Part shown: one piece after another, positions 30,535 through 60,555 of the stretch
Numbering within the stretch: the stretch's first letter is position 1
Layout: every line of letters begins with the position of its first letter
NCBI GenBank assembly: GCA_944472155.2
Contig: OX235271.1
Location: 80,832,256-80,896,255, forward strand
Reading direction: 5' to 3'
From: Trichobilharzia szidati
Taxonomy: Eukaryota; Platyhelminthes; Trematoda; Strigeidida; Schistosomatidae
DNA length: 64,000 bases
Notes under the pieces: model-generated
The model's database searches: none
Told to the model about the DNA's origin: nothing
Seen by the model: the letters and a program-made list of their open reading frames with translations, nothing else
Program-made: the position numbers and the translations under genes

Positions 30535-31038
30535 TTAAACTTTTTGGTCACCTGATTTACTTTTTATTAATTGGTATACTTCATCTATATTAACGTGTTT
30601 GTTAATCGCATTTTCGCTTGAGTACCAGGCCTCTAGGAATTCTCTGGCACTTTTCGTGTTTCCTCTGTTTAAGATTTTGACATGATCCCAATCAAACTGA
30701 TGACCATAGTTGTCTGCATGCATTGATACTAAAGAATTCATATCATGTCTTTTCACGGCTGATTTATGTTCTTGGATTCTGATTCGAAGGGGACGCCCAC
30801 TTTGGCCGATATAATGCTTGTTACAGTTCATACAATTTATTTTGTAGATGGTATTAATTTTATCCCCTTTTTCTGTTGGATCTTTCGGTTTGCATAATAT
30901 CGAATTAAGCGATTTGACTGGCTTGTGTGCTATATCTATATCAAACGGTTTCAGTACTCTAGCTGTTATTTCAGAGATGTTGCTCATACCGTTTGTAGGT
31001 ACTTTTCTTCCATTCTTTTCAGCTCTGGAGTGCTGCAA
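30535..31038 (-). pseudogene. Penelope-like GIY-YIG endonuclease domain (minus arm)
   Basis: The frame encodes INTIYKINCMNCNKHYIGQS (IY...YIG) followed by GRPLRIRIQEHKSAVKR with the conserved Arg and Glu/His region. The domain runs from about residue 60 to 150 of 167. In these elements it nicks target DNA for priming. The first 18 residues come from an out-of-frame reading of the RT end, so the RT and endonuclease are in different frames at the junction (30,987). Hence this copy is not expected to make a full RT-EN protein. Confidence 0.85.
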
Positions 31039-31550
31039 TGTGTCTGAACTCTTTTAAACAATGTCTGCACACAGTTTCGTTTGTGAGTAACTGGATTATT
31101 GCTAGTATAGTTGAGTATTTGATCTGTGTGCGTTGATTTTCTATAAACTTGTGTCTCTAAATCTCCTGTGTTGGTTCTCCTGATTAAGACATCTAAAAAT
31201 GGGATTTTGTTATCTAATTCTTCTTCTCTCGTGAATTTGATGTCTTCAAATATGTTGTTTATTAATTTGTGAGTATATTCTAAATCATTTCTCTTAATTA
31301 TTACAAATGTATCATCAACGTAACGTATCCAGATTTTCGGTTTAATTATAGGTAGAGCTATTAATTCTAATCTTTGCATAACGGCTTCGGCTATTAATCC
31401 TGATATGGGCGATCCCATTGGTGTTCCTTTTATTTGTTCATATATTTGAGTATTGAACTGGAAGTATGTTGTAAGGCATAATTTTATGAGTTCTATCCAA
31501 GTTGATAATTGCGTTTTTGTGTTTTCATCACTATAGAGTAATTGTTGCAT
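30984..31550 (-). pseudogene. Penelope-like reverse transcriptase fragment
   Basis: The segment encodes QIYEQIKGTPMGSPISGLIA (motif B region), WIRYVDDTFVIIKRNDLE (catalytic YVDD), then KIPFLDVLIRR and TQVYRKSTHTDQIL, which are typical of the Penelope RT thumb side. The open frame runs to 31,688, but the part beyond 31,549 reads antisense through the inverted module and is not RT. The N-terminal RT motifs are missing. Confidence 0.88.
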
Positions 31551-32001
31551 GAGCAACATCTCTGAAATAACAGCTAGAGTACTGAAACCGTTTGATATAG
31601 ATATAGCACACAAGCCAGTCAAATCGCTTAATTCGATATTATGCAAACCGAAAGATCCAACAGAAAAAGGGGATAAAATTAATACCATCTACAAAATAAA
31701 TTGTATGAACTGTAACAAGCATTATATCGGCCAAAGTGGGCGTCCCCTTCGAATCAGAATCCAAGAACATAAATCAGCCGTGAAAAGACATGATATGAAT
31801 TCTTTAGTATCAATGCATGCAGACAACTATGGTCATCAGTTTGATTGGGATCATGTCAAAATCTTAAACAGAGGAAACACGAAAAGTGCCAGAGAATTCC
31901 TAGAGGCCTGGTACTCAAGCGAAAATGCGATTAACAAACACGTTAATATAGATGAAGTATACCAATTAATAAAAAGTAAATCAGGTGACCAAAAAGTTTA
32001 A
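31549..32001 (+). pseudogene. Penelope-like GIY-YIG endonuclease domain (plus arm)
   Basis: From residue 1 this encodes the same product as the minus arm from its MSNISEITAR start. No RT lies upstream on this strand, so it is an isolated duplicated module. Confidence 0.85.
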
Positions 32002-32094
32002 AATCCTAGTCAATAGAAAGTGGTCAATACATATGTGAAGATAGTAACCAGGAGACGCAATTACATCACGCATGAGGAAATTTAAATCATTTCA

Positions 32095-32150
32095 CTTCGT
32101 GCTAAATATGGCGCTGAAGATGTTGTCCGGAAGGACGACGAAAGCTTCGC
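32095..32150 (+). ncRNA. possible minimal hammerhead in the Penelope 3' module (also on the minus arm near 30,390-30,440)
   Basis: The stretch reads core CTGAAGA, an eight-base stem II (GTTGTCC pairs with GGACGAC around GGAA) and GAAA, followed by the short self-complementary AGCT as stem III and CGC, which can pair with GCG before the core. Penelope-like elements are known to carry hammerheads with very short stem III. There is one extra T between core and stem II, so the call is tentative. Confidence 0.45.
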
Positions 32151-32434
32151 GATTAAACCAACCAGCTCAGAGAACGCTTTTAATTGTAAATCATCCACCT
32201 GAGCTACAAATCTTCTCTATTATTTCAAATAATCGTTTTGTTTGTCGTTATTTTAGACCTTTGCATAGCATATGTTATCAAAAGATAGAACCAAAAACTA
32301 TGCACATAAGTTGTGGTCACTGCTTTTTAGCCAGTTAACACACCAGTTTTATTCACAAAGGAGAGCTGTAAACAAATTGGTGAAAACTATTGTTTATTTA
32401 TGCTTGTGCAGGCTTAAATAACCAGAACACTGAC

Positions 32435-40261: not shown

Positions 40262-40909
40262 GGTTTCGAAGGTTTGAGCCATGTTTGTCTGATAGATTTT
40301 GTTCAATAGAACAATAATCTTGTAGTCCTTCAAAACTCTGCCATCAATATAATTATATTTGGAGACATTTGATTTAGTCTTGGATTTGGTCAGTCGCAAT
40401 TGGGACCGTTTGGCTTATTTTGAATTCGCTTGAGTCCTTTCAGAACAATTTGGTTTTATTCCTGTTTGGGTGAAGAATACAAGTCTGTATATTCAAGGGA
40501 TATTCGTGCGGCGCTTGTAACAATGCAGTCATCCGCGATGATATGAATACATTATAGAAACCTCAAAACGTAAAATAACACCGCCAATGAACTCTGGTCA
40601 CTTGAAAATTACGTTGACAATAATGTGTTTAAAGAATTGAGGGCAGAAGGTAGAAGCGTTAGGCATAAACAGGCTTGATAAACTTTCCTCACTAGTTTTC
40701 TCCACCGATTAGCCTACCGGCTCTTGGCTCCGGTAATGCGACACTCATTTGAATTTTCCAGATTATACATATCTCTATAAAACGTAGCAACCAGCAAATC
40801 CAAAATCCTGTTTATGGACAACTTATTTCCAAATTAGTAACTTCAAAATTAATGATTAACTATCAACACTTTATTCACATTTCAAACAAGTACAGAGAAA
40901 GAGAAACTC

Positions 40910-41320
40910 ATGAGCATTGAAAATGCAATACCTCATGAAATATCTACAGTATGCACGTGGAAAGAACTTTCCATTCCTACGCAAACGAGTAATTCATACA
41001 ATCTAAAAATTTCACAGTGTTGTGACATCATAAGAGCAGAAACAGAAAAATATTTAATTGATAAGACCTTCGAAATCTCCATGACTGCAGCATTCATATT
41101 CGGAAACCTAGTCAAAAGGCGAATTCTACCTACAGAACTCAAATATCCACAAGTCCTTTACATCAACACTTTGCTGAGCAGAAAGGTTTCGTGGTTAAAA
41201 GTCTCAGTATTAGATATTTTGGAAAGGTCTCAAGGGGTAAAAGCAGTAGTGTTGTTTCTCGGTGTCCCATGCAGGTTTCGTATAAGCCAATTTAGGTGGA
41301 ACCGGAACTTCCGTTCATAG
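40910..41320 (+). CDS. open frame of unknown function in the left arm
   Basis: A 136-residue frame with no recognised domain. Its mirror in the right arm (53,509-53,904, minus) is also open, for 131 residues. In the compared stretch I count about five amino-acid-changing and five silent differences. That is fewer changes than neutral drift predicts, but the numbers are tiny. No start context or splice signals support it further. Confidence 0.3.
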   Translation: MSIENAIPHEISTVCTWKELSIPTQTSNSYNLKISQCCDIIRAETEKYLIDKTFEISMTAAFIFGNLVKRRILPTELKYPQVLYINTLLSRKVSWLKVSVLDILERSQGVKAVVLFLGVPCRFRISQFRWNRNFRS

Positions 41321-41628
41321 ACTTGTTCTCTGGATGAGTCTTATTATCTTTAAATGGCAATGGTCGTTCAAAACAATTCAGTAAACGCTTGTATGAGTCG
41401 TGTGTGTCCCTTTTACAGTACCCCCACTTGTTAGCCTATTAATATTTATCAAATCTTATCTGCCTGAATTAAAGATTGCAGCAGGGATGAATAGACGTTG
41501 AAAAATAAGTATAAGCTTGTACTAGTGTGACCTTCTATGGGAGTCAGTAGTTTCAAGAGCTTTTGGTTTCTATTAAATCGTTGCATACTTCACGAGTGTG
41601 TCATATAGGGCTTAACATAATTACTTAC

Positions 41629-41718
41629 CCCGTGAACATATTAAAATTAGGATTACCAGTATCCGCGGCAAATGCAGCTAAACTGTTAAAATTACTCACC
41701 GAAAACTAAGGTCTTCGT
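41629..41718 (-). CDS. two candidate mini-exons of a host gene (left arm)
   Basis: On the minus strand a 19-nt segment (41,718-41,700) is preceded by a tgcag acceptor and followed by a GTGAGT donor. A 54-nt segment (41,682-41,629) follows, with acceptor ttttaacag and donor GTAAGT. Spliced together they stay open in one frame, coding EDLSF-R then LAAFAADTGNPNFNMFTG. Very short exons are common in schistosome genes. The protein is not recognised. Confidence 0.4.
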
Positions 41719-42239
41719 CTGCACAATGAGTGGCTATTAGCCATTATCTTGTGGATTTCTTAGGAGACAATGACGATAAATTATAATCACAGCAGTAATA
41801 AGTACATTTTTTCAGACCCGTAACGACCCAGATTAAAAACCCGCCGACTTTACAGATACTGGTACAATTCCCAATCCAGACTTTCCCACATTTCCTGCAG
41901 TTACAGAAGACTTAGTGCTTGTGTTGTGTCCTCTTATAAACTACCTCTGATCTTATATTACCCTATCTAATCATTAACCCAAATAACTAGACAATCAGCT
42001 ACAACTTTAATCACTCGGTGGAAGAATCAATGCTCCATGGTTAGTGGTATCCACTTTCGAGCTGCAGGAAAGATATTTGGTTGAAGATAGGAATGCAGCT
42101 TGCATGATTTTCTCTGGGCTTTCATATAAGTTAGTGTGCATTCTACTACCAAGATTGGTGACATCAACACTAACTTCATTGAAAGTGGGACATATTTACT
42201 AGTTACACTCGTATTTAGGCAGTCTCATATTTACTATTA

Positions 42240-43440
42240 TTTTTCCCTTGCGGTGCGAGTGGAACATAGGGCCCCAACAACACATCTCCACTTTCTTCTA
42301 TTTTCTACCGTCATCTTCAGCTGAGTCCACAATTGCCCATAATCTCTCATCTTCTATTTGGACGATCTCCTCCAAGTCACCCTCAGAAGACCCATCCGTC
42401 GCTTCTCATTCGGATTCCACTCGAGCAATGGCCTGCACTGCGTGTGATGTCATCCGACGGCCTCTTCAATGTATGCCCGATCTACCTCCATTTTCTCCCA
42501 CATATTTGTTGAGCGATCGGCTCTTGGTTGGTTTGTTGCCAGAGTTTCTTGTTACTTATTCTTTTCGACCATTTCATCTTCGGTATGGAGCGAAAGCAGC
42601 AGTTGATAAAAATCTGCCACCTGTTGGAAATCCTCTCCAATCTTACTTGCTTCGTTCGGAATTTTCTGTTTTTAGAGGAAGGGGGTAGATTTTTTCGCAT
42701 AAAATTTATGGGGCCAAACGGACTTTAATGCTCATCATAGTGTTGCAGTGGTTGGGCAGTAAATTGGTAGCTGCCTCAACATTACGCAGTGCCGCAAACA
42801 CTTATAAACACCACTCGAGAACTATATAATCATGCCACATACCAGGTAATTCGCAAAGTTAGTTTCACCGGAGCGTTCGAAATGAAGGTAAGAGTAATAC
42901 AAAGCTGCCTACTACCGCCAATGATCTTCCTGCGGACTGGATCATCTTACAGACCACGGGAAGTGAGAGGATGGACATGAATTAGACTGAGGAAAAAGTC
43001 CTAGAAGACCTGGATTTCGTATAAGATTTATATCTCATGTGGCGTAAACTCAAGGATATGCAAGATCAAACAAATAAGTCGGTAAAAGGGGCAGGGAAGA
43101 TTGGACTTCAGGTGAACATAGAGAATACAAGACAACAAACACCAATAACCATCAGTGAGATGAATCTGAATGAAGCCACCTCTTCACCCGCTTTACCGGA
43201 CAGCATCGATTCAATTACAGCCGGAACAGATGAGGAAGTCAAAGCCAGCCAGGATCGGGGATGCAAGGTATTGCCGCAAAAGCAGTGTGAAGATCTACAG
43301 CACTTGGCAGGAGGGAAAGTTCTGAATTTTTAATAAGAACGTCATGCCAGCACTTCTATTTGGCTCAGATATTTGATTTATGAGTCGTGGAAAGCGTTTC
43401 CAACAGCCTGTTGCGGTGATTTACTTCTAGTAGGATAGCC
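42240..43440. pseudogene. SR2-like RTE LINE with 5' inversion (left arm)
   Basis: The 3' segment lies on the minus strand (tail at 42,240, through the WRWI-type region to about 42,700). The preceding RT segment lies inverted on the plus strand (42,790-43,440), with RT-end sequence LMWRKLKDMQDQTNKSVKG and GLQVNIENT. The two meet near the same element position (fttccaacag-like sequence at both). This is the twin-priming pattern known for LINE insertions. Confidence 0.8.
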
Positions 43441-46400
43441 ACTGTCCCAATTCGCTGAGTGATAACCCAATCTGCATTGCTATGGCAGTACAAGCGTTCA
43501 TAAATCACCACACAAAGGTTGGTTTATCCCTATGAAAGCGCACACTATCACTCGCCCAGTCGAAAGCTCAACATATGGGAGTTGTAAGGTCTGAAGTTGA
43601 GAGTTAATTTTGTGATATCATGGTTGGGTGTTTTGGAAATTACTCCACCACAAGATGTACCATCTGGTACTACGCACTGACTACAACACTCCAAGAAACA
43701 CGAATCGGTCAACCACTTCATTGTAGGGACTTTACACTTATTATGGGACGCAAACACCCGAACAGACGTTGGAGTTTTGTGGTGAGAGGCGCACCCATGC
43801 GTATATTTACCAAGTGTCTGCTTACGCTTGAGATCGATTTTCCGATGCGCTTATACGCTACAGGCTCGCTAATACGGTGGTACTGCACAACCTTTTATCG
43901 ACAAAGGCGTCTACTTTTATTTCTCTTGCACTGGCTATGATGTTAATTGAGCAAGGTCTCAGGTACACTTCCAATCATGCTTGGCTTTTTTCTTAGTAGT
44001 TAGAATCATGTGTCTATTCGTATCTCTATTCGTCTCGTACTAATATCTTGCTGTCTGCAAGAGGCCTAACAGCTGCATTTGACGAAAAACTCATCTTGAA
44101 TCAGAGAGGCTTTCGGTTATATAATTGTTAAGAGATACCGATGAATAATGTCTATACTTCGTAATAGCTCGTTTTTATTTGACAGCACAACAGATGCTTC
44201 TGTGTTAAATTACTTTTGATATCATTGGGACATAAAAGTTGACTCTATGTAACTTGGGGAGGTCTTGTACACCACGCAGGAGAATTCAGTGGCTTGATCG
44301 AATTGAACTTGGTTTCTTCGCAACCTTTCTTACACTCCGAATGAGACACTAAACCCTAATCGTTGAAGTGAATGCTTGGTTTTTTGGTGTAGTATCTTAG
44401 ATTTGTATTACGTTTGCTACGCTTCCTACCTATCGTTTGTGAAGTCTGTTTGGTTTCATTTCTGCAAGGATATTAACATCGTTTATTTTTACTAATGCTG
44501 TTGGAAGTTTTAACGAGAGATTTTCTTTGCTAATGACGAATGGATACTTCAGCTGATGTTGTCATGTGCAATATATCGTTGATGTCAGTGAACTTTTGAC
44601 TTCCATGTTGAAAATATTGGGAAATGTTTTATGACTGTTATACCCAACGCAGGAAATTGGCGTCGGTTCACACCATGTTAGCAGACAATGTGTAGAACAA
44701 ATTTTAGTTTATTAGCTTTAACGCTGTTGATGTTGGTGAAGTTTGAATGAGCGATAATTGATTGGACACTAGTACTAAGTGTGGTGTGTTTAGTCCTTTC
44801 TTTGGTGCAGACTGAATTCAATCAGTCAGGTCTGCAACGTGACCACCATTCTTGGTAGCTCGCCACATTGCAAACATGACTAATGGAACCTCAGATGGCA
44901 CATGACTCTCTTCAAGCTTGAAGATACGCCTTGCTGACTGGTGAGTGCCAACTAGCACGAAACCCGGCTCCAAGGCTTCCTGACGATTGCCTCCAACCAT
45001 CTGATATTATCAAATCAATGAGCGATAGTTGGTTTCTTTACTGGACCATATCCGCTTTTTCGAGACAGGCAACGATGGTGGTCGTAGTCTAGCTGTTTGC
45101 AGCTTGACAAAAGACTACAACAAAACGATCAGAATTATTGTTGTGAGTTAAATGGATGTTTATTCATAGACTTCGTGCCGTAGTAACCCTACAGCGCTGG
45201 TTTATTGCCATTGGGAAAATTAACAACCGTTGAACTGCCAGTCCATCTTCTGATATTCCTGAGTCAATTACTGCACATAGTACCCTGAGTTGCAGGGATT
45301 AGTCTTTTGGCAGCAGCGCGAGCTTCAAGTTCTTTAAGCTGATGGCCTCTAAAGCTGGCACCTTTACAGTCCCTTTTCCTGTGTAGTACTTAACGAATGT
45401 ATTTCGCAACGTTGGGACTAATTTCATGCCTATAGTTTTTTAGCCTGCTGCTTTTCTTTTGACATGAGGTAAAAGCCAAACAGCTCAGCAGGGATAAAAA
45501 TCTTATAAATGAGGCTTTTCATAGTTTCTGTCCTCGAAAAATTTAATGATGGGTTATTCCTAAAAGTGCTTCATCTGCTATCTGGGTTGATTTTGACATA
45601 CCTCTCGCGTTATTATTCATACCTTCGAAAGCCAACACGGCGTCAACCTATCATAACCAGTCTCTCGTCTTTAAAAAAATGTAAAAACTAACGTATATTA
45701 CGTAGTGGTTTTTAAAATGTGACCTGCCAAATCTTCTCTGTAAAGGTAGAAGAGTCACTTCCAATATAACCAAAGTGCTGCATTGTCGTATTGCTCGTAA
45801 ACTGAATAAAACTTATTAGCATGCCAAATAAATTAGTGTAAATTATTTATCAACCCTTAATTTACAATTACAAATCTTCCCTATTATTTCAACCCTTAAT
45901 TTAGTTTTCGAAGCTCCTGAACCCAATTTTCAAGCTTTGAATTACACTGGGCAGTGTAAGACAAGAGAACTTATCCTTTTTTTCAGGAATAAAACAGTAA
46001 CAACACTTTTCGTAATATAAAACTCCGAGAATTCTTCATTACCAGTAAATGCGTTGCTAAAATTGAAGATATGATTACTAAATAGTGACTCACTTCGCCA
46101 CACTTTCCTTACCGGATGGTTTGATACAGCCATTCAGCCTGCACTCTTTCATGGCAGAACGTAAGAAGCATAATACGCCAGTTTCTCCACATGCTTTTGT
46201 AAACCTCTCCTGCCAACATACGACCAATTCACAACCAAAGAAATAATTATTCTACTGAACATTAGGGAATCGACTTCTAAATTTTTCCTTTATCTATACA
46301 CCTTTAACGACGATGGTTTGAAGCCATTTTCTGCCGAGCGCCGCATCGATTTGCCCTGAGGTTTAGCCCAATTAACTGCTAAAAGCAGTTCGAGTAAACC

Positions 46401-46453
46401 ACTTCAGTTTTGTTACAGTAACTGCTTAAATACTCAGTTATTCACACCCTAAT
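43441..46453. other. inner part of left arm, content mostly unrecognised
   Basis: Several 60-106-residue frames exist (for example 43,620-43,940 plus, 44,818-45,000 minus). None matches a known family. The frame at 44,818-45,000 (mirror 49,814-49,996) follows an acceptor-like atatcag and reads like protein (FVLVGTHQSARRIFKLEE). Because the arms are nearly identical here, conservation between them is no evidence for coding. Confidence 0.4.
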
Positions 46454-47301
46454 CCAGATTCATATCCACTTATTTATAATCCCAGAATCGGTTTCAGCAA
46501 ACTTTTACCGAAGCTCCGAAACAATCAAAGTACACCTTTGCACAAGTCTTCCACTATCATCCTCGTTTCTATCCTTTTTTCTCTTCACTATATCCTACAG
46601 ACTTTCACGCATTGAAATTCTCCATTACAAATTGCAATCTCTTTTGAAAGGCTAGTGGAACGCACACACCACTAAGTCAGAATAGCTACGGTGTTGCATG
46701 CGAGTTTTCGCTATCAAATGGATTTTCCAGATATTTCCGTACCAAATATCCCCTTCAGCTCACTGGCTGATCCACATGGCTGAAGTGCTATCCGCATTAT
46801 ACGCGATCATGGCGAAAAAACTTCAGCATTCATACACTCGTAATGCCGAATGGTGTAGAAAAGTGCCTGTCAGTCACATAAACTCCAACATTTATATAAC
46901 AAGCAAGTTCAAACAGTCCCTGTTACTATATGAACTCCTTATTTCACAAAAAAGTCAGAATTCACTATTATCATCTGTTCAGGTTAATGCTGTAAGTCTG
47001 AACTGCGCCGAAATAACAAAGCGGGATTTTTAAGTGTATGAAGAATACAACATAACTTGCTGAAGTCTTAAAGTGCACTGAGCAGATTTACACGTGTGAA
47101 ATTATGATGGTAATAGGAACTCACTTAAAACATGTATGTTATTACGAAACATGACGATTGGTATTATTTTCAATGAAAAGTACTTTTGAATTAAAAATCT
47201 CAATTTTCAACCATCAAATCACATTTCTGAACTAACAATATTTTACCAGTATAAATGCGAAAATGGACAATCACCTTTAGGAATGAATAGTAACCGTATT
47301 G
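46454..47301. other. unique part of the palindrome centre
   Basis: These 848 bp occur once in the window. The frame 46,698-47,033 (111 residues) has no recognised domain. Confidence 0.6.
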
Positions 47302-48360
47302 CAAATCTAAGATACTACACCAAAAAACCAAGCATTCACTTCAACGATTAGGGTTTAGTGTCTCATTCGGAGTGTAAGAAAGGTTGCGAAGAAACCAAGT
47401 TCAATTCGATCAAGCCACTGAATTCTCCTGCGTGGTGTACAAGACCTCCCCAAGTTACATAGAGTCAACTTTTATGTCCCAATGATATCAAAAGTAATTT
47501 AACACAGAAGCATCTGTTGTGCTGTCAAATAAAAACGAGCTATTACGAAGTATAGACATTATTCATCGGTATCTCTTAACAATTATATAACCGAAAGCCT
47601 CTCTGATTCAAGATGAGTTTTTCGTCAAATGCAGCTGTTAGGCCTCTTGCAGACAGCAAGATATTAGTACGAGACGAATAGAGATACGAATAGACACATG
47701 ATTCTAACTACTAAGAAAAAAGCCAAGCATGATTGGAAGTGTACCTGAGACCTTGCTCAATTAACATCATAGCCAGTGCAAGAGAAATAAAAGTAGACGC
47801 CTTTGTCGATAAAAGGTTGTGCAGTACCACCGTATTAGCGAGCCTGTAGCGTATAAGCGCATCGGAAAATCGATCTCAAGCGTAAGCAGACACTTGGTAA
47901 ATATACGCATGGGTGCGCCTCTCACCACAAAACTCCAACGTCTGTTCGGGTGTTTGCGTCCCATAATAAGTGTAAAGTCCCTACAATGAAGTGGTTGACC
48001 GATTCGTGTTTCTTGGAGTGTTGTAGTCAGTGCGTAGTACCAGATGGTACATCTTGTGGTGGAGTAATTTCCAAAACACCCAACCATGATATCACAAAAT
48101 TAACTCTCAACTTCAGACCTTACAACTCCCATATGTTGAGCTTTCGACTGGGCGAGTGATAGTGTGCGCTTTCATAGGGATAAACCAACCTTTGTGTGGT
48201 GATTTATGAACGCTTGTACTGCCATAGCAATGCAGATTGGGTTATCACTCAGCGAATTGGGACAGTGGCTATCCTACTAGAAGTAAATCACCGCAACAGG
48301 CTGTTGGAAACGCATTCCACGACTCATAAATCAAATATCTGAGCCAAATAGAAGTGCTGG
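47302..48360. repeat. third copy of an arm segment inside the palindrome centre
   Basis: This 1,059-bp block is the reverse complement of 43,347-44,405 (sum 91,707) and a direct repeat of 50,409-51,467. At one site that differs between the arms (gtggaa[a/t]gcgtttcc) it carries the right-arm base. Its right edge shares the 4 bases CTGG with the arm edge. Confidence 0.95.
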
Positions 48361-51300
48361 ATTAGGGTGTGAATAACTGAGTATTTAAGCAGTTACTGTA
48401 ACAAAACTGAAGTGGTTTACTCGAACTGCTTTTAGCAGTTAATTGGGCTAAACCTCAGGGCAAATCGATGCGGCGCTCGGCAGAAAATGGCTTCAAACCA
48501 TCGTCGTTAAAGGTGTATAGATAAAGGAAAAATTTAGAAGTCGATTCCCTAATGTTCAGTAGAATAATTATTTCTTTGGTTGTGAATTGGTCGTATGTTG
48601 GCAGGAGAGGTTTACAAAAGCATGTGGAGAAACTGGCGTATTATGCTTCTTACGTTCTGCCATGAAAGAGTGCAGGCTGAATGGCTGTATCAAACCATCC
48701 GGTAAGGAAAGTGTGGCGAAGTGAGTCACTATTTAGTAATCATATCTTCAATTTTAGCAACGCATTTACTGGTAATGAAGAATTCTCGGAGTTTTATATT
48801 ACGAAAAGTGTTGTTACTGTTTTATTCCTGAAAAAAAGGATAAGTTCTCTTGTCTTACACTGCCCAGTGTAATTCAAAGCTTGAAAATTGGGTTCAGGAG
48901 CTTCGAAAACTAAATTAAGGGTTGAAATAATAGGGAAGATTTGTAATTGTAAATTAAGGGTTGATAAATAATTTACACTAATTTATTTGGCATGCTAATA
49001 AGTTTTATTCAGTTTACGAGCAATACGACAATGCAGCACTTTGGTTATATTGGAAGTGACTCTTCTACCTTTACAGAGAAGATTTGGCAGGTCACATTTT
49101 AAAAACCACTACGTAATATACGTTAGTTTTTACATTTTTTTAAAGACGAGAGACTGGTTATGATAGGTTGACGCCGTGTTGGCTTTCGAAGGTATGAATA
49201 ATAACGCGAGAGGTATGTCAAAATCAACCCAGATAGCAGATGAAGCACTTTTAGGAATAACCCATCATTAAATTTTTCGAGGACAGAAACTATGAAAAGC
49301 CTCATTTATAAGATTTTTATCCCTGCTGAGCTGTTTGGCTTTTACCTCATGTCAAAAGAAAAGCAGCAGGCTAAAAAACTATAGGCATGAAATTAGTCCC
49401 AACGTTGCGAAATACATTCGTTAAGTACTACACAGGAAAAGGGACTGTAAAGGTGCCAGCTTTAGAGGCCATCAGCTTAAAGAACTTGAAGCTCGCGCTG
49501 CTGCCAAAAGACTAATCCCTGCAACTCAGGGTACTATGTGCAGTAATTGACTCAGGAATATCAGAAGATGGACTGGCAGTTCAACGGTTGTTAATTTTCC
49601 CAATGGCAATAAACCAGCGCTGTAGGGTTACTACGGCACGAAGTCTATGAATAAACATCCATTTAACTCACAACAATAATTCTGATCGTTTTGTTGTAGT
49701 CTTTTGTCAAGCTGCAAACAGCTAGACTACGACCACCATCGTTGCCTGTCTCGAAAAAGCGGATATGGTCCAGTAAAGAAACCAACTATCGCTCATTGAT
49801 TTGATAATATCAGATGGTTGGAGGCAATCGTCAGGAAGCCTTGGAGCCGGGTTTCGTGCTAGTTGGCACTCACCAGTCAGCAAGGCGTATCTTCAAGCTT
49901 GAAGAGAGTCATGTGCCATCTGAGGTTCCATTAGTCATGTTTGCAATGTGGCGAGCTACCAAGAATGGTGGTCACGTTGCAGACCTGACTGATTGAATTC
50001 AGTCTGCACCAAAGAAAGGACTAAACACACCACACTTAGTACTAGTGTCCAATCAATTATCGCTCATTCAAACTTCACCAACATCAACAGCGTTAAAGCT
50101 AATAAACTAAAATTTGTTCTACACATTGTCTGCTAACATGGTGTGAACCGACGCCAATTTCCTGCGTTGGGTATAACAGTCATAAAACATTTCCCAATAT
50201 TTTCAACATGGAAGTCAAAAGTTCACTGACATCAACGATATATTGCACATGACAACATCAGCTGAAGTATCCATTCGTCATTAGCAAAGAAAATCTCTCG
50301 TTAAAACTTCCAACAGCATTAGTAAAAATAAACGATGTTAATATCCTTGCAGAAATGAAACCAAACAGACTTCACAAACGATAGGTAGGAAGCGTAGCAA
50401 ACGTAATACAAATCTAAGATACTACACCAAAAAACCAAGCATTCACTTCAACGATTAGGGTTTAGTGTCTCATTCGGAGTGTAAGAAAGGTTGCGAAGAA
50501 ACCAAGTTCAATTCGATCAAGCCACTGAATTCTCCTGCGTGGTGTACAAGACCTCCCCAAGTTACATAGAGTCAACTTTTATGTCCCAATGATATCAAAA
50601 GTAATTTAACACAGAAGCATCTGTTGTGCTGTCAAATAAAAACGAGCTATTACGAAGTATAGACATTATTCATCGGTATCTCTTAACAATTATATAACCG
50701 AAAGCCTCTCTGATTCAAGATGAGTTTTTCGTCAAATGCAGCTGTTAGGCCTCTTGCAGACAGCAAGATATTAGTACGAGACGAATAGAGATACGAATAG
50801 ACACATGATTCTAACTACTAAGAAAAAAGCCAAGCATGATTGGAAGTGTACCTGAGACCTTGCTCAATTAACATCATAGCCAGTGCAAGAGAAATAAAAG
50901 TAGACGCCTTTGTCGATAAAAGGTTGTGCAGTACCACCGTATTAGCGAGCCTGTAGCGTATAAGCGCATCGGAAAATCGATCTCAAGCGTAAGCAGACAC
51001 TTGGTAAATATACGCATGGGTGCGCCTCTCACCACAAAACTCCAACGTCTGTTCGGGTGTTTGCGTCCCATAATAAGTGTAAAGTCCCTACAATGAAGTG
51101 GTTGACCGATTCGTGTTTCTTGGAGTGTTGTAGTCAGTGCGTAGTACCAGATGGTACATCTTGTGGTGGAGTAATTTCCAAAACACCCAACCATGATATC
51201 ACAAAATTAACTCTCAACTTCAGACCTTACAACTCCCATATGTTGAGCTTTCGACTGGGCGAGTGATAGTGTGCGCTTTCATAGGGATAAACCAACCTTT

Positions 51301-51373
51301 GTGTGGTGATTTATGAACGCTTGTACTGCCATAGCAATGCAGATTGGGTTATCACTCAGCGAATTGGGACAGT

Positions 51374-52574
51374 GGCTATCCTACTAGAAGTAAATCACCG
51401 CAACAGGCTGTTGGAAACGCATTCCACGACTCATAAATCAAATATCTGAGCCAAATAGAAGTGCTGGCATGACGTTCTTATTAAAAATTCAGAACTTTCC
51501 CTCCTGCCAAGTGCTGTAGATCTTCACACTGCTTTTGCGGCAATACCTTGCATCCCCGATCCTGGCTGGCTTTGACTTCCTCATCTGTTCCGGCTGTAAT
51601 TGAATCGATGCTGTCCGGTAAAGCGGGTGAAGAGGTGGCTTCATTCAGATTCATCTCACTGATGGTTATTGGTGTTTGTTGTCTTGTATTCTCTATGTTC
51701 ACCTGAAGTCCAATCTTCCCTGCCCCTTTTACCGACTTATTTGTTTGATCTTGCATATCCTTGAGTTTACGCCACATGAGATATAAATCTTATACGAAAT
51801 CCAGGTCTTCTAGGACTTTTTCCTCAGTCTAATTCATGTCCATCCTCTCACTTCCCGTGGTCTGTAAGATGATCCAGTCCGCAGGAAGATCATTGGCGGT
51901 AGTAGGCAGCTTTGTATTACTCTTACCTTCATTTCGAACGCTCCGGTGAAACTAACTTTGCGAATTACCTGGTATGTGGCATGATTATATAGTTCTCGAG
52001 TGGTGTTTATAAGTGTTTGCGGCACTGCGTAATGTTGAGGCAGCTACCAATTTACTGCCCAACCACTGCAACACTATGATGAGCATTAAAGTCCGTTTGG
52101 CCCCATAAATTTTATGCGAAAAAATCTACCCCCTTCCTCTAAAAACAGAAAATTCCGAACGAAGCAAGTAAGATTGGAGAGGATTTCCAACAGGTGGCAG
52201 ATTTTTATCAACTGCTGCCTTCGCTCCATACCGAAGATGAAATGGTCGAAAAGAATAAGTAACAAGAAACTCTGGCAACAAACCAACCAAGAGCCGATCG
52301 CTCAACAAATATGTGGGAGAAAATGGAGGTAGATCGGGCATACATTGAAGAGGCCGTCGGATGACATCACACGCAGTGCAGGCCATTGCTCGAGTGGAAT
52401 CCGAATGAGAAGCGACGGATGGGTCTTCTGAGGGTGACTTGGAGGAGATCGTCCAAATAGAAGATGAGAGATTATGGGCAATTGTGGACTCAGCTGAAGA
52501 TGACGGTAGAAAATAGAAGAAAGTGGAGATGTGTTGTTGGGGCCCTATGTTCCACTCGCACCGCAAGGGAAAAA
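51374..52574. pseudogene. SR2-like RTE LINE with 5' inversion (right arm)
   Basis: Mirror of 42,240-43,440. The 3' segment is on the plus strand (52,114-52,332 encodes NKKLWQQTNQEPIAQQICG) and the inverted RT segment is on the minus strand (51,481-51,777). It shares the breakpoints with the left arm, so the insertion predates the duplication or was copied by conversion. Confidence 0.8.
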
Positions 52575-53095
52575 TAATAGTAAATATGAGACTGCCTAAA
52601 TACGAGTGTAACTAGTAAATATGTCCCACTTTCAATGAAGTTAGTGTTGATGTCACCAATCTTGGTAGTAGAATGCACACTAACTTATATGAAAGCCCAG
52701 AGAAAATCATGCAAGCTGCATTCCTATCTTCAACCAAATATCTTTCCTGCAGCTCGAAAGTGGATACCACTAACCATGGAGCATTGATTCTTCCACCGAG
52801 TGATTAAAGTTGTAGCTGATTGTCTAGTTATTTGGGTTAATGATTAGATAGGGTAATATAAGATCAGAGGTAGTTTATAAGAGGACACAACACAAGCACT
52901 AAGTCTTCTGTAACTGCAGGAAATGTGGGAAAGTCTGGATTGGGAATTGTACCAGTATCTGTAAAGTCGGCGGGTTTTTAATCTGGGTCGTTACGGGTCT
53001 GAAAAAATGTACTTATTACTGCTGTGATTATAATTTATCGTCATTGTCTCCTAAGAAATCCACAAGATAATGGCTAATAGCCACTCATTGTGCAG

Positions 53096-53185
53096 ACGAA
53101 GACCTTAGTTTTCGGTGAGTAATTTTAACAGTTTAGCTGCATTTGCCGCGGATACTGATAATCCTAATTTTAATATGTTCACGGG
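53096..53185 (+). CDS. two candidate mini-exons of a host gene (right arm)
   Basis: Mirror of 41,629-41,718: exon 53,096-53,114 (19 nt) and exon 53,132-53,185 (54 nt), with the same splice signals kept. One base differs in the second exon, changing Gly to Asp (ADTG to ADTD); the frame stays open. Confidence 0.4.
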
Positions 53186-53508
53186 GTAAGTAATTATGTT
53201 AAGCCCTATATGACACACTCGTGAAGTATGCAACGATTTAATAGAAACCAAAAGCTCTTGAAACTACTGACTCCCATAGAAGGTCACACTAGTACAAGCT
53301 TATACTTATTTTTCAACGTCTATTCATCCCTGCTGCAATCTATAATTCAGGCAGATAAGATTTGATAAATATTAATAGGCTAACAAGTGGGGGTACTGTA
53401 AAAGGGACACACACGACTCATACAAGCGTTTACTGAATTGTTTTGAACGATCATTGTTATTTTAAGATAATAAGACTCATCCAGAGAACAAGTCTATGGG
53501 CGGAAGTT

Positions 53509-53904
53509 TCAGTTCCCCCTAAATTGGCTTATACGAAACCTGCATGGGACACCGAGAAACAACACTACTGCTTTTACCCCTTGAGACCTTTCCAAAATAT
53601 CTAATACTGAGACTTTTAACCACGAAACCTTTCTGCTCAGCAAAGTGTTGATGTAAAGGACTTGTGGATATTTGAGTTCTGTAGGTAGAATTCGCCTTTT
53701 GACTAGGTTTCCGAAGATGAATGCTGTAGTTATGGGGATTTCAAAAGTCTTATCAATTAAGTATTTTTCTGTTTCTGCTCTTATGATATCACAATACTGT
53801 GAAATTTTTAGATTGTATGAATTACTCGTTTGCGTAGGAATGGAAAGTTCTTTCCACGTGCATACTGTAGATATTTCATGAGGTATTGTATTTTCAATGC
53901 TCAC
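53509..53904 (-). CDS. open frame of unknown function in the right arm
   Basis: Mirror of 40,910-41,320; 131 residues with a different C-terminal end because of indels after SQFR. No domain is recognised. Confidence 0.3.
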   Translation of the reverse strand: MSIENTIPHEISTVCTWKELSIPTQTSNSYNLKISQYCDIIRAETEKYLIDKTFEIPITTAFIFGNLVKRRILPTELKYPQVLYINTLLSRKVSWLKVSVLDILERSQGVKAVVLFLGVPCRFRISQFRGN

Positions 53905-54561
53905 GAGTTTTTCTTTCTCTGTACTTGTTTGAAATGTGAATAAGGTGTTGACAGTTTATCATTGAGGGTTACTAATTTGGAAATAAGTTGTCCATAAACA
54001 GGATTTTGGATTTGCTGGTTGCTACGTTTAATAAAAATATGTAAAGTATGGAATATTCGAATTAGTGTCACGTCACCGGAGGCAATATACGGCAGGCGAA
54101 ACGGTGGACAAAACTAGTAAGGATATTTTATTCAGCCTGTTTATTTTCAACGCTTCTTACTTCTGCCGTCAATCTTTTTGTCCATGCGGATTTAAACACA
54201 TTATTGTCAATATAATTTTCAAGGTACAGTGTTCATTGCCGGTGTTATTTTACGATTTGAGGTTTCTATAATGTATTCATATCATCGCTGATGACTACAT
54301 TGTTACAAGCGCCGCACGAATATCCCTTGAATATACAGAATTACAGCCTTCACCCAAACAGGAATAAAACCAAATTGTTCTGAAAGGACTCAAGGGAATT
54401 CAAAACAAGCCAAATGGTCCCAATTGCGACTGACCAAATCCAAGACTAAATCAAATGTCTCCAAATATAATCATATTGATAACAGAGTTTTGAAGGAGTA
54501 CAAGATTATTGTTCTATTAAACAATATCTATCACACAAATATGGCACAATCCTTCGAAACC

Positions 54562-55469: not shown

Positions 55470-55664
55470 TTTATTCAGGAAATATATTAGTGTCCAGTTA
55501 GGCGCACCGATTTATTTAAGACAAATTGCAAAATTTTATATATATTAGAACTTCATTGTTTAAAATTGGAATCGTAGGACGTTACATACCAGTTTCTTCA
55601 GCTGTGGGATTTACATCCTCCCGTCTCTATATGATGTGGTGTAAATAACTGCCTTACCACTGAC

Positions 55665-56058
55665 TGTTAATCGCGATAGATAGATAGACTGTATGATAAA
55701 CAGCCAATCAATATTATGTGACCTTTTTTGTCGCGATTATTGGTCGATTTATTGTAACTCTCACCACGTGATGACCTTGAATGTTCTTTTTTGTCTGTCA
55801 CTTTACTTGTATATACATGTAATTAATTGACTGTTCATTTTGTCCGTACCTTCAATACTGTTCGGTACGTTTTTGTCCTATTTTTGTAATGACAATGGAT
55901 TTGTACATTTTTCTTGGTGTAATTGTATGGTTTATTTTATGTTTTAGAAACAGATAAAGTTAAAGTCAAGTTATTCTGTTTTAACTATTGCTAAGCCCAG
56001 ACTCTGTGTCGTCAGTATTGAGGGAGGACTAAATCTGTAGGACAAAAATAATCCTACA
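55665..56058 (+). repeat. 5' LTR of the BEL/Pao element
   Basis: 394 bp, beginning TGTTAATCGCGATAGATAGA and ending AATCCTACA. I see no difference from the 3' LTR. It should contain the promoter; no convincing TATA box or polyadenylation signal could be singled out by eye. Confidence 0.95.
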
Positions 56059-56108
56059 AAGTTTCGAACAGTATTACAGACGAAAGTTTCGAACAGCATG
56101 TCAGATGA
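56059..56108 (+). repeat. 25-bp tandem pair directly after the 5' LTR
   Basis: Two imperfect 25-bp units (56,059-56,083 and 56,084-56,108), each starting aagtttcgaacag. The primer binding site is expected here, but no TGG start of a standard tRNA primer site is visible. The second unit contains the ATG of the element's frame. Confidence 0.7.
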
Positions 56109-58371
56109 AAGTTATGAAACTATGCCGTCGTTAACTCCACAGTTAGAAAAAAGTAATGAAGCTGATTTCCCTGAAAGCAACGAGAATAAATCACGCTATA
56201 TGATAGAATTGGAGCTAGCGAAATTGCGCATAGTCCAAAAGGAGAAAGAAATGGAATTAGAAAGATTACGACAAGGTAGTCGCGAATGTTCTTGTCACAA
56301 TAAATCGCCTTACAAACCTTCTACTTCTCATAAAGTCTCTGTATCTCCTAATGATGAGTCCGCCAGAACCATATCTAAGTTTCTGGACATGCTTAAAGCA
56401 TATCAATATTTTAAGTGGAATGCCGATGAACTTGAGTGTTGGATCAATGAAAAATTGCAAACATATACAAATGAGAATTTTAAAGAACTCAGTAATCTTC
56501 AGCTGAAAAAACAGAAACATCAAGAGTTTGAGTTCGAAGTAACAGTTCATGCTGAAACACTCTTAGCTCTAGATTCTACGGGAGAAGAAATGATTGGTCA
56601 GGGACACTACGCAACAGATATTATCAAAAACCGTCTTGATGAATTGCATGCCCTATGGGAAAGGTTTATGGCTATTTTCAGAGAAAAATCACGTCTTATT
56701 AACCTAACGCTTAAATTTGTCCAGTTTTTACGCCAAGTTGACGAGATACTTTTCTGGATACGTGAAAAAGAAACTTACGTAACATCAGAGGATTTAGGTC
56801 AAGACTTGGAAGATGTTGAGATACTTCAAAAAGGGTTTAATAAGTTTACAAAAGATCTCGAGAATCAAGAAAGTCGTGCAGAAGACATCTATCGGAAGGT
56901 AGATGAACTTCTAGAAGAGAAATTTCCTGAGGATGCCCTAGTCATAGAAAAGTCCAGACAGGTCCGCGAAGCTCTAGAACGTCTGAAGGATCTGGTTAGA
57001 AAACGACAAGAAAAGCTCCTGGAAGCCTATGAGATACAGTGCTTCTTTAGAGACATAGATAGAGCTATATCGTGGGTGAATGAAAAGTCCATTCCTTTAT
57101 CCATTGAGGACTGTGGTCGTGATCTTGCCTCAATCCAAGCCTTGCAAATGAAGCACGAAGCATTAGAAAGGGGTTTGACTGCCCTAGATGAAAAGATTGT
57201 TCAACTTGGAGATGATGCTAAGGCGCTTGCACAGAAGCATCCTGATTCGCTAGACACTATACAAGGCAAGTATGACGCCCTAATTACTGCATGGGATAAG
57301 CTGAAAAGTCAGGCTGTAGATAGGAGAGGTAAACTGGAAGAGTCATTCAAGATGCATCGCTTTTTGGCTGACTGGAGAGACTTGAATATATGGATGAATA
57401 ACATGAAGACGTTAATATCGGCGGATGATTTGGCAAAGGATGTAGTTGGTGCTGAAGCCCAAGTAGAGCGACATAAGGAATACACCGCTGAGATAAATTC
57501 TCGAGCTGAAAGTTTCGATACATGCATGCAAGAAGGTCAGGCATTACTAAGTGTTGGCCATCCCTGTAATGGAGAAATAGCTGCTAAACTTTCCACCCTT
57601 GAAAGAGAGAGAGCCTCCTTGATGCAGTTGTGTGAGGAAAGACGTGAACAGCTAGAACAGTGTATGGGCCTTCAGTATTTTTACCGCGACGCTGAACAGT
57701 CGGAATCTTGGATTGGTAAGCAAGAGGCTCTCTTAGAAATAAATGATGTGGGAAACTCACTCGATTCTGTGGAAGCAATTATAAGGAAACATGAAGACTT
57801 CGAAAAGTCACTTTTAGCACAAGAAGAAAAGATGCGACAACTTGATGAATTCGCTGCAAAATTAATCGAGTCAAACCACTATGCGGTTTCACAGGTTCAT
57901 GAGATTCAGGAAGGTCTTCAAAGTAGACGAAATGCATTAAAGGAGAAAGCTCAGAACCGCCGTCAGCGTCTTGAAGATTTCCACCGTTACCAAATTTTCG
58001 ATAGAGATGCAGATGAAATGCAGTCATGGATATCAGGAAAACTTAAATATGCACTTGATGAAAGTTACAAAGACTCCACGAATTTGCAAACAAAGATGCA
58101 GAAGCACCAGAATTTCGAGGCAGAAATACAAGCGAACCAATCTCGCGTCAAAGATATTAAAAAGACAGGTCAGGATTTGTTAAATGCAAACCACTACAAC
58201 TCGCCAGAAATAAAAGTAAAGATTGAACAGTTGGATGAAACTTGGTCTCATCTCGTAAATGCCATGGGAGACAAGAAGAAAAATTTAGATCAAGCAAGTA
58301 GTCAACAACAGTTCGCTCGTAACGTAGATGTCAAGTTATGGTTGAATTATGTTGAAGCTCAGATAGCCTAA
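56098..58371 (+). CDS. BEL gag N-terminus fused to alpha-spectrin repeats 1-7 (first part of chimeric frame)
   Basis: Residues 1-98 are element-derived: an acidic start, then a charged coil (IELELAKLRIVQKEKEMELE) typical of BEL/Pao gag, then a Ser-rich linker. From about residue 99 the protein is alpha-spectrin: three-helix repeats start near residues 99, 204, 309, 415, 521, 627 and 732, each with the W-containing first helix (for example RDADEMQSWISGKL). Typical alpha-spectrin strings include KHEDFEKSLLAQEEK and GRDLASIQALQMKHEALER. Spectrin crosslinks actin under the membrane. Here the actin-distant N-terminal repeats are kept, while SH3, EF-hands and tetramer partners are missing. The frame stops at a TAA (58,369-58,371) within repeat 7, where a Ser codon is expected. 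Repeat 7 also lacks one codon near residue 743. No introns are present, so an mRNA was the source. Confidence 0.92.
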   Translation: MSDESYETMPSLTPQLEKSNEADFPESNENKSRYMIELELAKLRIVQKEKEMELERLRQGSRECSCHNKSPYKPSTSHKVSVSPNDESARTISKFLDMLKAYQYFKWNADELECWINEKLQTYTNENFKELSNLQLKKQKHQEFEFEVTVHAETLLALDSTGEEMIGQGHYATDIIKNRLDELHALWERFMAIFREKSRLINLTLKFVQFLRQVDEILFWIREKETYVTSEDLGQDLEDVEILQKGFNKFTKDLENQESRAEDIYRKVDELLEEKFPEDALVIEKSRQVREALERLKDLVRKRQEKLLEAYEIQCFFRDIDRAISWVNEKSIPLSIEDCGRDLASIQALQMKHEALERGLTALDEKIVQLGDDAKALAQKHPDSLDTIQGKYDALITAWDKLKSQAVDRRGKLEESFKMHRFLADWRDLNIWMNNMKTLISADDLAKDVVGAEAQVERHKEYTAEINSRAESFDTCMQEGQALLSVGHPCNGEIAAKLSTLERERASLMQLCEERREQLEQCMGLQYFYRDAEQSESWIGKQEALLEINDVGNSLDSVEAIIRKHEDFEKSLLAQEEKMRQLDEFAAKLIESNHYAVSQVHEIQEGLQSRRNALKEKAQNRRQRLEDFHRYQIFDRDADEMQSWISGKLKYALDESYKDSTNLQTKMQKHQNFEAEIQANQSRVKDIKKTGQDLLNANHYNSPEIKVKIEQLDETWSHLVNAMGDKKKNLDQASSQQQFARNVDVKLWLNYVEAQIA

Positions 58372-60162
58372 GAGGATGTCGGTCGTGATCTAAACGGTGT
58401 GATGAACGCACAAAAGCTGCACAACTTGCTTGAATCTGATGTAGCTACTCATCGTGAACGTATAGATACATTCAAAGTCCAGGCTGACACGCTTGCTGCA
58501 GAAAGTCATCTCGACGCTCCTATTATCCAAGAAGAACAAAGACAGTTAGCCCAACGTTACCATGACCTGCAAATCCCTCTAAGTCAACGTCGTGAGAAGT
58601 TAAGAGATGCCCTTCCCTCGGACACATCTTTGCAGCTTGAATATGGTGACTGTAGTGAGCTGATGAAGTTACTAGTCGATTGTTGTAAAGATTTTAAAGC
58701 ACATTCGCTTAACCAAATCGAATCAGAAATGTGGCATCAGTATGCTGAAAGCTTCACTATTGGCTCATTAGCCACTCACAAAGATGCCTTCAGGTTATGG
58801 GTTAAAGATAAGAACCCTGTTGTTGAAAACTATATTGGTTTTATCGAGTCATACCATGATCTATTTGACGTTCGTGCAAAGTTTGAGTCATTTGTCGCTG
58901 TTGTAAATAGGTCAGTGTCTAAAAAATTCCAACTACTTGTGAATAATGCTGAAAGGTTGTTAACAAATTTACCACGGCCTTCTACGTTTGAAAAAGTTAA
59001 TTTCTTACAGCCAGACTTTACTAGTTTGGATATAGTGACGTTTACAACTGCTGGAATTCCTGTTGGAACTAATATTTCTAACTATGATGATGTACGACAA
59101 GTTGATGGATTTAAAAATGTTTCTTTGGATAGTGTACTTAGTGTTCGTCTCGAGGATCCTAAACCAGAATTTCTACGTAATGAAGACAAACAAATGTACG
59201 TGGAACATGCTGAAAGTTCCTTTGTTTTACAAGTTGGACTTCATGAACTGACGGGATATGGTTCAGGTAAACTGTTTCGGCGTGATTGTTATGGAAAACG
59301 AAATTTCCACACGAAAACTACTGAATATGTCATAAATGGAGGTCCTATAAAAGGTTGGTGTGAACCAGGAGAAACGTATGACAACAAGTTTTCAAACCTT
59401 TCATCTGCAATAGACAAGTGTCAAGCTGAGTGCGTTGGAATTTATTTATCTGATTTACCTCTTGTTCTGGAGCAGTTCGGTCTGAATACCAACTGTGCTC
59501 AAGGCAATGCCCCAGATGCAGTCTATATTAATTGGTTGTTAATGTCTCCTTCAGCTGTAACTTCCATGGAGATTTATTCTCCAACAGAAAATGCTGATGA
59601 CATTGGATCATGGTTTCAAGCACATTATTGTGCTTGTTATGCGATTCTGCGAGTTTTTATTGAAGCTGACGATTCTATGGGACGTACACATAAAGTAGTC
59701 GGTGAGGACGATGCATCTGATTTGTGTATTTCCTTAGTTCCAAAAAGGCCTTTAACTGCGGCTCGTTCAGCAATTGGTGAATTCTTAAGAAAATTACAAT
59801 ATTACAAAGGTAAAGCGAATGCTATGTATGGATATGCTTTCTCCCAACACTATAGTCAACTACTTCCAAAATATTTAACTGATTTGCTCTGGCATAAATG
59901 GCTACGTGGATATCTTCTGATGCTGCAAACAAGATCTAAGTGGTTGGATATAAAGCACAACCTACAACCTGATGATCTCGTCTTAGTTAAGAGTGCTGAC
60001 ACACAGAGAGGTCTCTGGCGAAAGGCTATAGTTAAGCAGATGTACTATGACCAAGATGGCCACGTCAGGACACTGTGTTTGAAAACTTCAGCTCAAGAAG
60101 TGGAACAAGATATAAGAAGCGTACGAAAGGTCAACGTGGTGATCGTTCGCGGGGAGTGTTAA
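58372..60162 (+). CDS. rest of spectrin repeat 7, dipeptidyl peptidase III and BEL pol C-terminus (same frame after the stop)
   Basis: The frame continues directly after the TAA. Numbering from the GTG at 58,399, residues 1-70 finish spectrin repeat 7. From about 75 to 480 the sequence is dipeptidyl peptidase III (M49 zinc exopeptidase): YIGFIESYHDLF, FESFVAVVN, TSLDIVTFTTAGIPVGTNI. The zinc motif reads HELTGYGSGKLF at 282-293, so the second zinc His of HEXXGH is Tyr. The third ligand Glu (CQAECVG, residue 344) is kept. The enzyme is therefore probably inactive. DPP3's N-terminal part and extreme C-terminus are absent. From about residue 485 the protein is the BEL/Pao pol tail (DUF5641-like): LQTRSKW, PDDLVLVKS, RGLWRKAIV. 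The stop codon lies inside the 3' LTR. ATG 58,402 could restart translation, but no evidence shows that it does. Confidence 0.9.
   Translation, partial: EDVGRDLNGVMNAQKLHNLLESDVATHRERIDTFKVQADTLAAESHLDAPIIQEEQRQLAQRYHDLQIPLSQRREKLRDALPSDTSLQLEYGDCSELMKLLVDCCKDFKAHSLNQIESEMWHQYAESFTIGSLATHKDAFRLWVKDKNPVVENYIGFIESYHDLFDVRAKFESFVAVVNRSVSKKFQLLVNNAERLLTNLPRPSTFEKVNFLQPDFTSLDIVTFTTAGIPVGTNISNYDDVRQVDGFKNVSLDSVLSVRLEDPKPEFLRNEDKQMYVEHAESSFVLQVGLHELTGYGSGKLFRRDCYGKRNFHTKTTEYVINGGPIKGWCEPGETYDNKFSNLSSAIDKCQAECVGIYLSDLPLVLEQFGLNTNCAQGNAPDAVYINWLLMSPSAVTSMEIYSPTENADDIGSWFQAHYCACYAILRVFIEADDSMGRTHKVVGEDDASDLCISLVPKRPLTAARSAIGEFLRKLQYYKGKANAMYGYAFSQHYSQLLPKYLTDLLWHKWLRGYLLMLQTRSKWLDIKHNLQPDDLVLVKSADTQRGLWRKAIVKQMYYDQDGHVRTLCLKTSAQEVEQDIRSVRKVNVVIVRGEC
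60148..60156 (+). promoter_or_regulatory. polypurine tract before the 3' LTR
   Basis: The purine run ggggag (60,151-60,156, preceded by cgc) abuts the LTR start and would prime plus-strand synthesis. It also encodes the last residues of the pol tail. Confidence 0.7.
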
Positions 60163-60550
60163 TCGCGATAGATAGATAGACTGTATGATAAACAGCCAAT
60201 CAATATTATGTGACCTTTTTTGTCGCGATTATTGGTCGATTTATTGTAACTCTCACCACGTGATGACCTTGAATGTTCTTTTTTGTCTGTCACTTTACTT
60301 GTATATACATGTAATTAATTGACTGTTCATTTTGTCCGTACCTTCAATACTGTTCGGTACGTTTTTGTCCTATTTTTGTAATGACAATGGATTTGTACAT
60401 TTTTCTTGGTGTAATTGTATGGTTTATTTTATGTTTTAGAAACAGATAAAGTTAAAGTCAAGTTATTCTGTTTTAACTATTGCTAAGCCCAGACTCTGTG
60501 TCGTCAGTATTGAGGGAGGACTAAATCTGTAGGACAAAAATAATCCTACA
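60157..60550 (+). repeat. 3' LTR of the BEL/Pao element
   Basis: 394 bp, same as the 5' LTR by eye, followed directly by the CTGAC target duplication. Its first six bases supply the stop codon of the chimeric frame. Confidence 0.95.
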
Positions 60551-60555
60551 CTGAC

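Follow-up and report, generated by a model that had tools for sequence, protein, structure and literature searches.

An LTR retrotransposon of Trichobilharzia that carries alpha-spectrin and dipeptidyl peptidase III coding sequence in a frame apparently kept open

Unrelated cellular coding sequence, namely that of alpha-spectrin and of dipeptidyl peptidase III (DPP3), sits inside the long terminal repeats (LTRs) of a retrotransposon of about 4.9 kb (positions 55665-60550; interior, 4,098 bp) in a 64,000-nucleotide stretch of Trichobilharzia szidati DNA, the whole of which is referred to below as the window. The chimera is mobile: the copy in the window has a target-site duplication and identical LTRs, and its spectrin/DPP3 join is also found in further copies of two species. 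We consider it likely that the host pieces were captured sequentially by template switching, that the element would be moved by an autonomous BEL/Pao relative, and that its copies would be mobile mainly while their reading frame is open.

Structure of the element

The features of the element, with the basis of each assignment in parentheses, were as follows.

55660..55664, no strand: left target-site duplication, CTGAC (sequence)
55665..56058, plus strand: 5' LTR, 394 bp, TG...CA ends, TGTTAA...CCTACA (394/394 identical to the 3' LTR)
56058..56113, plus strand: leader directly 3' of the 5' LTR, 25-nt tandem repeat in 2.2 copies (sequence)
56098..56391, plus strand: gag-like N-terminal remnant, last residues KFLDM (likeness to T. 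regenti P0009; no Pfam match)
56392..56400, plus strand: join 1, gag-like/spectrin, residues KR common to the parents (protein alignment)
56401..58611, plus strand: alpha-spectrin repeats 1-7, host residues ~48-785 (Pfam, structure match, host alignment)
58369..58371, plus strand: in-frame stop TAA, the only one (sequence)
58606..58611, plus strand: join 2, spectrin/DPP3, residues DA common to the parents (protein alignment)
58606..59874, plus strand: DPP3 core, host residues ~225-647 (Pfam, structure match, alignments)
59242..59259, plus strand: degenerate zinc motif, HELTGY for HELLGH (alignment)
59413..59430, plus strand: second metal motif, DKCQAE for EECRAE (alignment)
59875..60159, plus strand: DUF5641 (PF18701), probably from the C-terminal region of the integrase in a Pao-type polyprotein (Pfam)
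60151..60156, plus strand: short polypurine run, GGGGAG, adjoining the 3' LTR (sequence)
60157..60550, plus strand: 3' LTR, 394 bp (sequence)
60551..60555, no strand: right target-site duplication, CTGAC (sequence)

The 5' and 3' LTRs showed no mismatch over 394 bp, and the 5-bp duplication CTGAC flanks the element on both sides, as had been noticed in a sequence-only reading of the window. Direct LTRs with TG...CA ends together with the target-site duplication identify it as an LTR retrotransposon, and the identity of the LTRs indicates that the insertion of the window copy is young. By sequence, no TGG-type primer binding site was seen near the end of the 5' LTR, only the 25-nt tandem repeat. 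Positions 56042-56075 are an inverted match (76%) of positions 55854-55887 within the LTR. With blastn and tblastn, no second copy of the element was found in the rest of the window, where all matches were of chance length (13-19 bases).

Reading frame and captured host sequences

The interior forms one frame (56098-60159; 1,354 codons) with the single in-frame TAA, and the stop codon that ends the frame (60160-60162) lies at the very beginning of the 3' LTR. Pfam assigned to it, in this order, spectrin repeats (407.9 bits), Peptidase_M49 (443.9 bits) and DUF5641 (64.8 bits), all far above chance, and the top solved-structure matches of the frame were alpha-spectrin and dipeptidyl peptidase 3. 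The spectrin cargo was 89.7% identical to residues 42-785 of the T. szidati host alpha-spectrin with one 1-residue gap, and the DPP3 cargo was 79.4% identical to residues 225-647 of T. regenti DPP3 with no gap, these two being the closest host proteins among the matches listed. Such near-gapless alignment indicates that the cargo is continuous coding sequence, and the Pfam and host alignments agree with the order of spectrin repeats 1-7 and then DPP3 that the sequence-only reading had given.

The gag-like start comprises ~98 residues and was recognised by its likeness to the T. regenti database protein P0009 (59.8% identity over 97 aa; window residues 19-115, slightly beyond the join), which diverges after KFLDM, where the window switches to spectrin. 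The cargo occupies the place where Cys-His boxes would lie; P0009 has a stretch that we take to be a degenerate Cys-His-like one. Neither the gag-like start nor the pre-RT piece described below gave a credible Pfam match. At the other end of the frame, the match of the tail to DUF5641 had an E value of 8.7e-18 in the whole frame and 1.7e-19 for the isolated piece. In a published Aedes entry, DUF5641 is recorded together with Pao and integrase (PMC13424557), and this co-listing supports the identity of the tail, which is likely the integrase end of a BEL/Pao element, in agreement with the earlier assignment. The predicted structure of the tail had a pLDDT of 52.9, too low for a fold search. Reverse transcriptase (RT), RNase H, protease and the integrase core were not found in the element with Pfam.

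Both ends of the enzyme are absent from the DPP3 cargo, the N-terminal one comprising 224 residues. In the host enzyme, the motifs HELLGH and EECRAE were present in 4/4 blood-fluke sequences; in the element, the second histidine of the zinc motif is replaced by Y or N in all six copies that cover it, and the pair EE by DK or NK in all five that cover that position. The altered positions are presumably zinc ligands, and the cargo peptidase looks dead. An active peptidase cargo was rejected on account of the altered zinc motifs and the missing enzyme parts.

A family of related copies

The single event that had been supposed from the window gives way to a family, as at least seven database proteins show all or part of the chimera (T. 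regenti, P0004, P0005, P0009, P0012 and P0024; T. szidati, P0007 and P0151). They came from protein searches in which 7,996 and 7,994 candidates were scored, with the best 120 of 831 and the best 120 of 624 listed; as predicted proteins, these relatives are enriched for open frames, and exon choices may hide sequence. P0151 (1,304 aa, without a stop) aligns end to end with the window copy at 92.2%, and its 90%-identity cluster has 13 member sequences, perhaps with duplicates between sources. P0009 consists of the gag-like start, pre-RT-like sequence, ~44 residues, DPP3 from its first methionine, and DUF5641, and is without spectrin; the stretch after its gag-like start is, we assume, gag/pre-RT sequence. 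P0012, in which spectrin is followed by the pre-RT piece and the DPP3 start that P0009 also has, is likely a recombinant of the spectrin-bearing and DPP3-only forms of the element. The in-frame stretch of ~44 residues before the DPP3 methionine, common to P0009 and P0012, may represent 5' untranslated sequence that is translated here, or the host gene may have an extended N-terminus. The Clonorchis DPP3 P0010 likewise has an N-terminal extension. No autonomous gag-pol parent was found by a protein search with the P0151 tail, which returned only P0151 and P0009 of 31 candidates (717-2,282 aa, sharing short words). Stronger conservation of this integrase-end tail was considered from the comparison of the window with P0151 (2/96 residues of the tail vs 94/1164 of the rest differ; p 0.027), and was dropped on the reverse trend against P0005 (40/95 vs 77/305) and P0007 (32/96 vs 36/226), the predicted ends of which may be mis-modelled.

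In the DPP3 tree, rooted at the midpoint between the schistosomes and the other flukes, 7/8 copies (all but P0024) formed a clade (100/100) inside the schistosomes, sister to the T. regenti host DPP3 (fork, 100/100) and with Heterobilharzia next outside (fork, 91/93). The window grouped with the T. szidati copies (100/99) and T. regenti P0005 with P0009 (100/98), and the placement of P0004 and P0012 was unsupported. The closest host proteins and this grouping make Trichobilharzia the likely source of the window, with T. szidati the nearest of the species seen. The host rows of the trees were seven DPP3 and seven spectrin sequences chosen from the listed matches, with the T. szidati host DPP3 absent; P0024 (DPP3 tree) and P0012 and P0024 (spectrin tree), of which only fragments align, were omitted, and the partial Fasciola DPP3 P0014 was used in the DPP3 alignment and not in the tree. 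One capture of DPP3 on the Trichobilharzia lineage is supported by this topology. It likely preceded the split of T. regenti and T. szidati and followed that of Heterobilharzia, unless the element crossed species. The spectrin tree leaves the placement of P0004 relative to the other copies unsupported, so that a single spectrin capture rests on the shared join.

Joins and the order of the captures

All three joins of the window copy (gag-like/spectrin, spectrin/DPP3 and DPP3/tail) are in frame. The window, P0151 and P0004 have an identical join 2, and 6/8 copies, the window included, have the DPP3/tail join. At the spectrin/pre-RT join of P0012, the parents have the residues DL in common, and a 2-residue parental overlap was thus present at 3/3 joins testable by protein (two of the window, one of P0012), the DPP3/tail join being excluded from this protein-level comparison for lack of parental pol. 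When the same proteins were joined at random, an overlap of at least two residues arose in 1.0-1.2% of the trials. The overlaps fit template switching at short similarities, such as has been described for LTR-mediated retrocopies (PMC5408686). They also fit microhomology-mediated DNA repair, which might have acted if processed pseudogenes of both genes had lain in or near a BEL/Pao copy and had later been joined by deletions; this course of events is improbable, however, as the joins are in frame and common to several copies and species, more independent events would be required, and inspection by eye alone showed neither a poly(A) tract nor an inner target-site duplication where the cargo begins and ends.

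Changes relative to the host that are common to the window and P0151 were more frequent in DPP3 (55/421) than in spectrin (42/742; p 2e-5), and the differences between the window and P0151 were similar in both parts (39/421 and 55/742; p 0.27). More shared change in DPP3 with equal later divergence is expected if DPP3 entered earlier. The direct order test of shared against tip changes was weaker (p 0.043); the hosts in the order test were T. regenti for DPP3 and T. szidati for spectrin, and their branches were short (0.0097 and 0.0011). The DPP3-only form of P0009 and the greater change in DPP3 together argue for two sequential captures. In the simplest reading, which we infer from these comparisons, DPP3 was most likely captured first and spectrin later. 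Of the earlier proposal that two template switches replaced nearly all of gag-pol, the near-total loss of gag-pol stands; the number of joins is three, and the captures were most likely separate in time.

Site constraint and the open frame

In total, the cargo differs from the host at 75/742 residues in spectrin and 87/421 in DPP3, and the amino-acid changes fall on conserved and variable sites almost alike. The changes common to the window and P0151 were at 27/218 host-invariant and 28/203 variable sites in DPP3, and at 23/466 and 19/276, respectively, in spectrin. Where six other hosts have an invariant residue, the window copy was changed at 38/195 sites in DPP3 and 43/471 in spectrin, vs 1/195 (T. 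regenti) and 5/471 in the nearest hosts. The spectrin cargo retains a mild site preference, since 46/271 of its variable sites were changed against the 43/471 invariant ones; the host spectrin itself differs at 23/271 of the variable sites.

These counts bear on the idea that the chimeric protein is useful, its gag-like part and spectrin repeats making up a Gag-like or scaffold protein that would co-assemble with helper particles. All three joins keep the phase, the uninterrupted 1,304-aa version exists in P0151, and in both of the above comparisons the invariant sites of spectrin are changed somewhat less often than the variable ones. However, the spectrin bias is small beside the differences of the host spectrin at the same variable sites, the DPP3 changes are equally frequent at both kinds of site, and the zinc motifs of DPP3 are altered. 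We regard a useful chimeric protein as unlikely.

Stops and frameshifts gave a different picture from the amino-acid changes. With kappa 2, 11.0 stops were expected (10.0-11.9 for kappa 4-1) and one was seen (P 2e-4), all 162 host differences having been charged to the element, which is a slight overcount. In the cargo, 38 frameshifts were expected and none was seen, the expectation being taken from old repeats of the window regarded as neutral (15 alignments, with 1,012 mismatches to 169 frame-shifting indels; they are not independent, as several share sequence); the error spectrum of the reverse transcriptase may be indel-poor, which could partly explain the low indel counts. Counting only the branch that leads to the window copy, the expectation was 13.6 frameshifts, and the sole length change between the window and P0151 was one codon. 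Note that the window copy is less exposed to the open-frame bias of the predicted proteins, yet was perhaps first noticed for its open frames.

An ordinary non-autonomous hitch-hiker, whose frame is open through luck and recent origin, would agree with the identical LTRs of a young insertion and with the almost unconstrained amino-acid changes. But the cargo lineage is not young, as judged from its total differences from the host, and the deficit of stops and frameshifts is as described above; passive carriage is thus doubtful, slightly more so than a useful protein. Near-unconstrained residues combined with few stops and frameshifts suggest instead that selection acts on the open frame and not on the protein sequence. 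Selection for the open frame itself appears to be the simplest account. That the peptidase motifs were broken while the frame stayed almost open goes beyond what had been read from the sequence at first. As for the stop in the window copy, either it arose after the insertion or it did not prevent the last move.

Proposed mechanism

Transcription of the element would start from the 5' LTR, and its RNA would be packaged by the Gag of a helper, reverse transcribed with occasional jumps between co-packaged RNAs and inserted by the helper's integrase; we infer that the enzymes for this mobilisation come from an autonomous BEL/Pao relative. Only the ends (the LTRs, the leader and perhaps the tail) would be needed in cis. 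The DPP3 mRNA would have been captured first, giving a P0009-type form with the gag-like start and the pre-RT region and without spectrin, and in a subsequent round the synthesis of the minus strand on an RNA of this form would have switched from DPP3 to an alpha-spectrin mRNA and then back to the gag-like region. Mobility would persist mainly while the frame stays open from the gag-like start to the tail, for a reason other than the function of the cargo protein. The reason is probably that translation reaching the 3' LTR keeps nonsense-mediated decay away from the genomic RNA, or that packaging is linked to such translation: if the frame is unbroken as far as the 3' LTR, only a short 3' untranslated end would remain, and the RNA would be spared from decay or be packaged in a translation-linked manner. 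A literature search on decay escape and translation-linked packaging found nothing specific. We tentatively suggest, as a reading with somewhat less than an even chance of being right, that host coding sequence acquired stepwise served as a frame filler that kept the RNA mobile whatever protein it encoded, and that by this means the family has spread to at least two species of fluke.

Relation to known elements

Multi-gene capture by an LTR element is already known from maize Bs1, an LTR element that, according to a review, transduced segments of three unrelated host genes with the formation of a chimeric gene (PMC13317346). As in this account of Bs1, the element described here shows transduction by an LTR element of several unrelated host genes. 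By description, it differs from the plant element in its animal host, in its likely BEL/Pao tail, in the absence of nearly all of gag-pol, in occurring in two species with the apparent intermediate P0009, and in keeping an open frame around a broken enzyme. For LTR-mediated retrocopies of animals, PMC5408686, citing Tan and coworkers, describes template switching at microsimilarities that an LTR-element RNA has with a cellular mRNA. Unlike the retrocopies described there, two unrelated genes are found here in one element that is now a mobile family. Sinbad, a Pao/BEL element of Schistosoma mansoni, has identical 386-bp LTRs, and recent activity and mobilisation in trans were suggested for it; it encodes gag, protease, RT, RNase H and integrase, and host genes are not described in the accessible part of that source (PMC554778). 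By description, the present element resembles Sinbad in the size of its LTRs and in its blood-fluke host.

No earlier description of the window element was found from titles and the beginnings of abstracts in the Trichobilharzia, Pao and gene-capture literature, subscription papers being mostly outside this scope. The view that two unrelated genes in one BEL/Pao element had not been described needs to be narrowed, since capture of several genes has the Bs1 precedent among LTR elements; new are the setting in an animal element, likely of BEL/Pao type, the near-total replacement of gag-pol and the open frame kept around a decayed protein.

The family keeps apparent successive stages of capture, namely DPP3 alone, DPP3 with spectrin, and a likely recombinant, and the order, the join preference and the fate of captured genes can be read from one lineage. 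Selection on an open frame can be separated here from selection on the encoded protein, which is seldom possible for non-autonomous elements. The family also points to a way in which fused host coding sequences may spread in animal genomes.

Other repeats in the window

A large palindrome (40262-46457 / 48357-54561) has 6.2-kb arms that are 98.2% identical, with ~1.9 kb between them, and its end lies ~1.1 kb left of the element; repeats of 1.08 kb at ~99% identity recur within it. The palindrome could be real or an assembly effect. Such a near-perfect palindrome adjoining the element on its left is a place prone to assembler error, and would be a ground for regarding the chimera as an artefact of assembly or annotation; with the spectrin/DPP3 and DPP3/tail joins found in T. 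szidati and T. regenti proteins alike, an artefact is scarcely credible. Elsewhere in the window, a perfect 642-bp inverted repeat (30346-30987 / 31549-32190) surrounds open reading frames, which we take to resemble a Penelope-like element with a GIY-YIG-like end.
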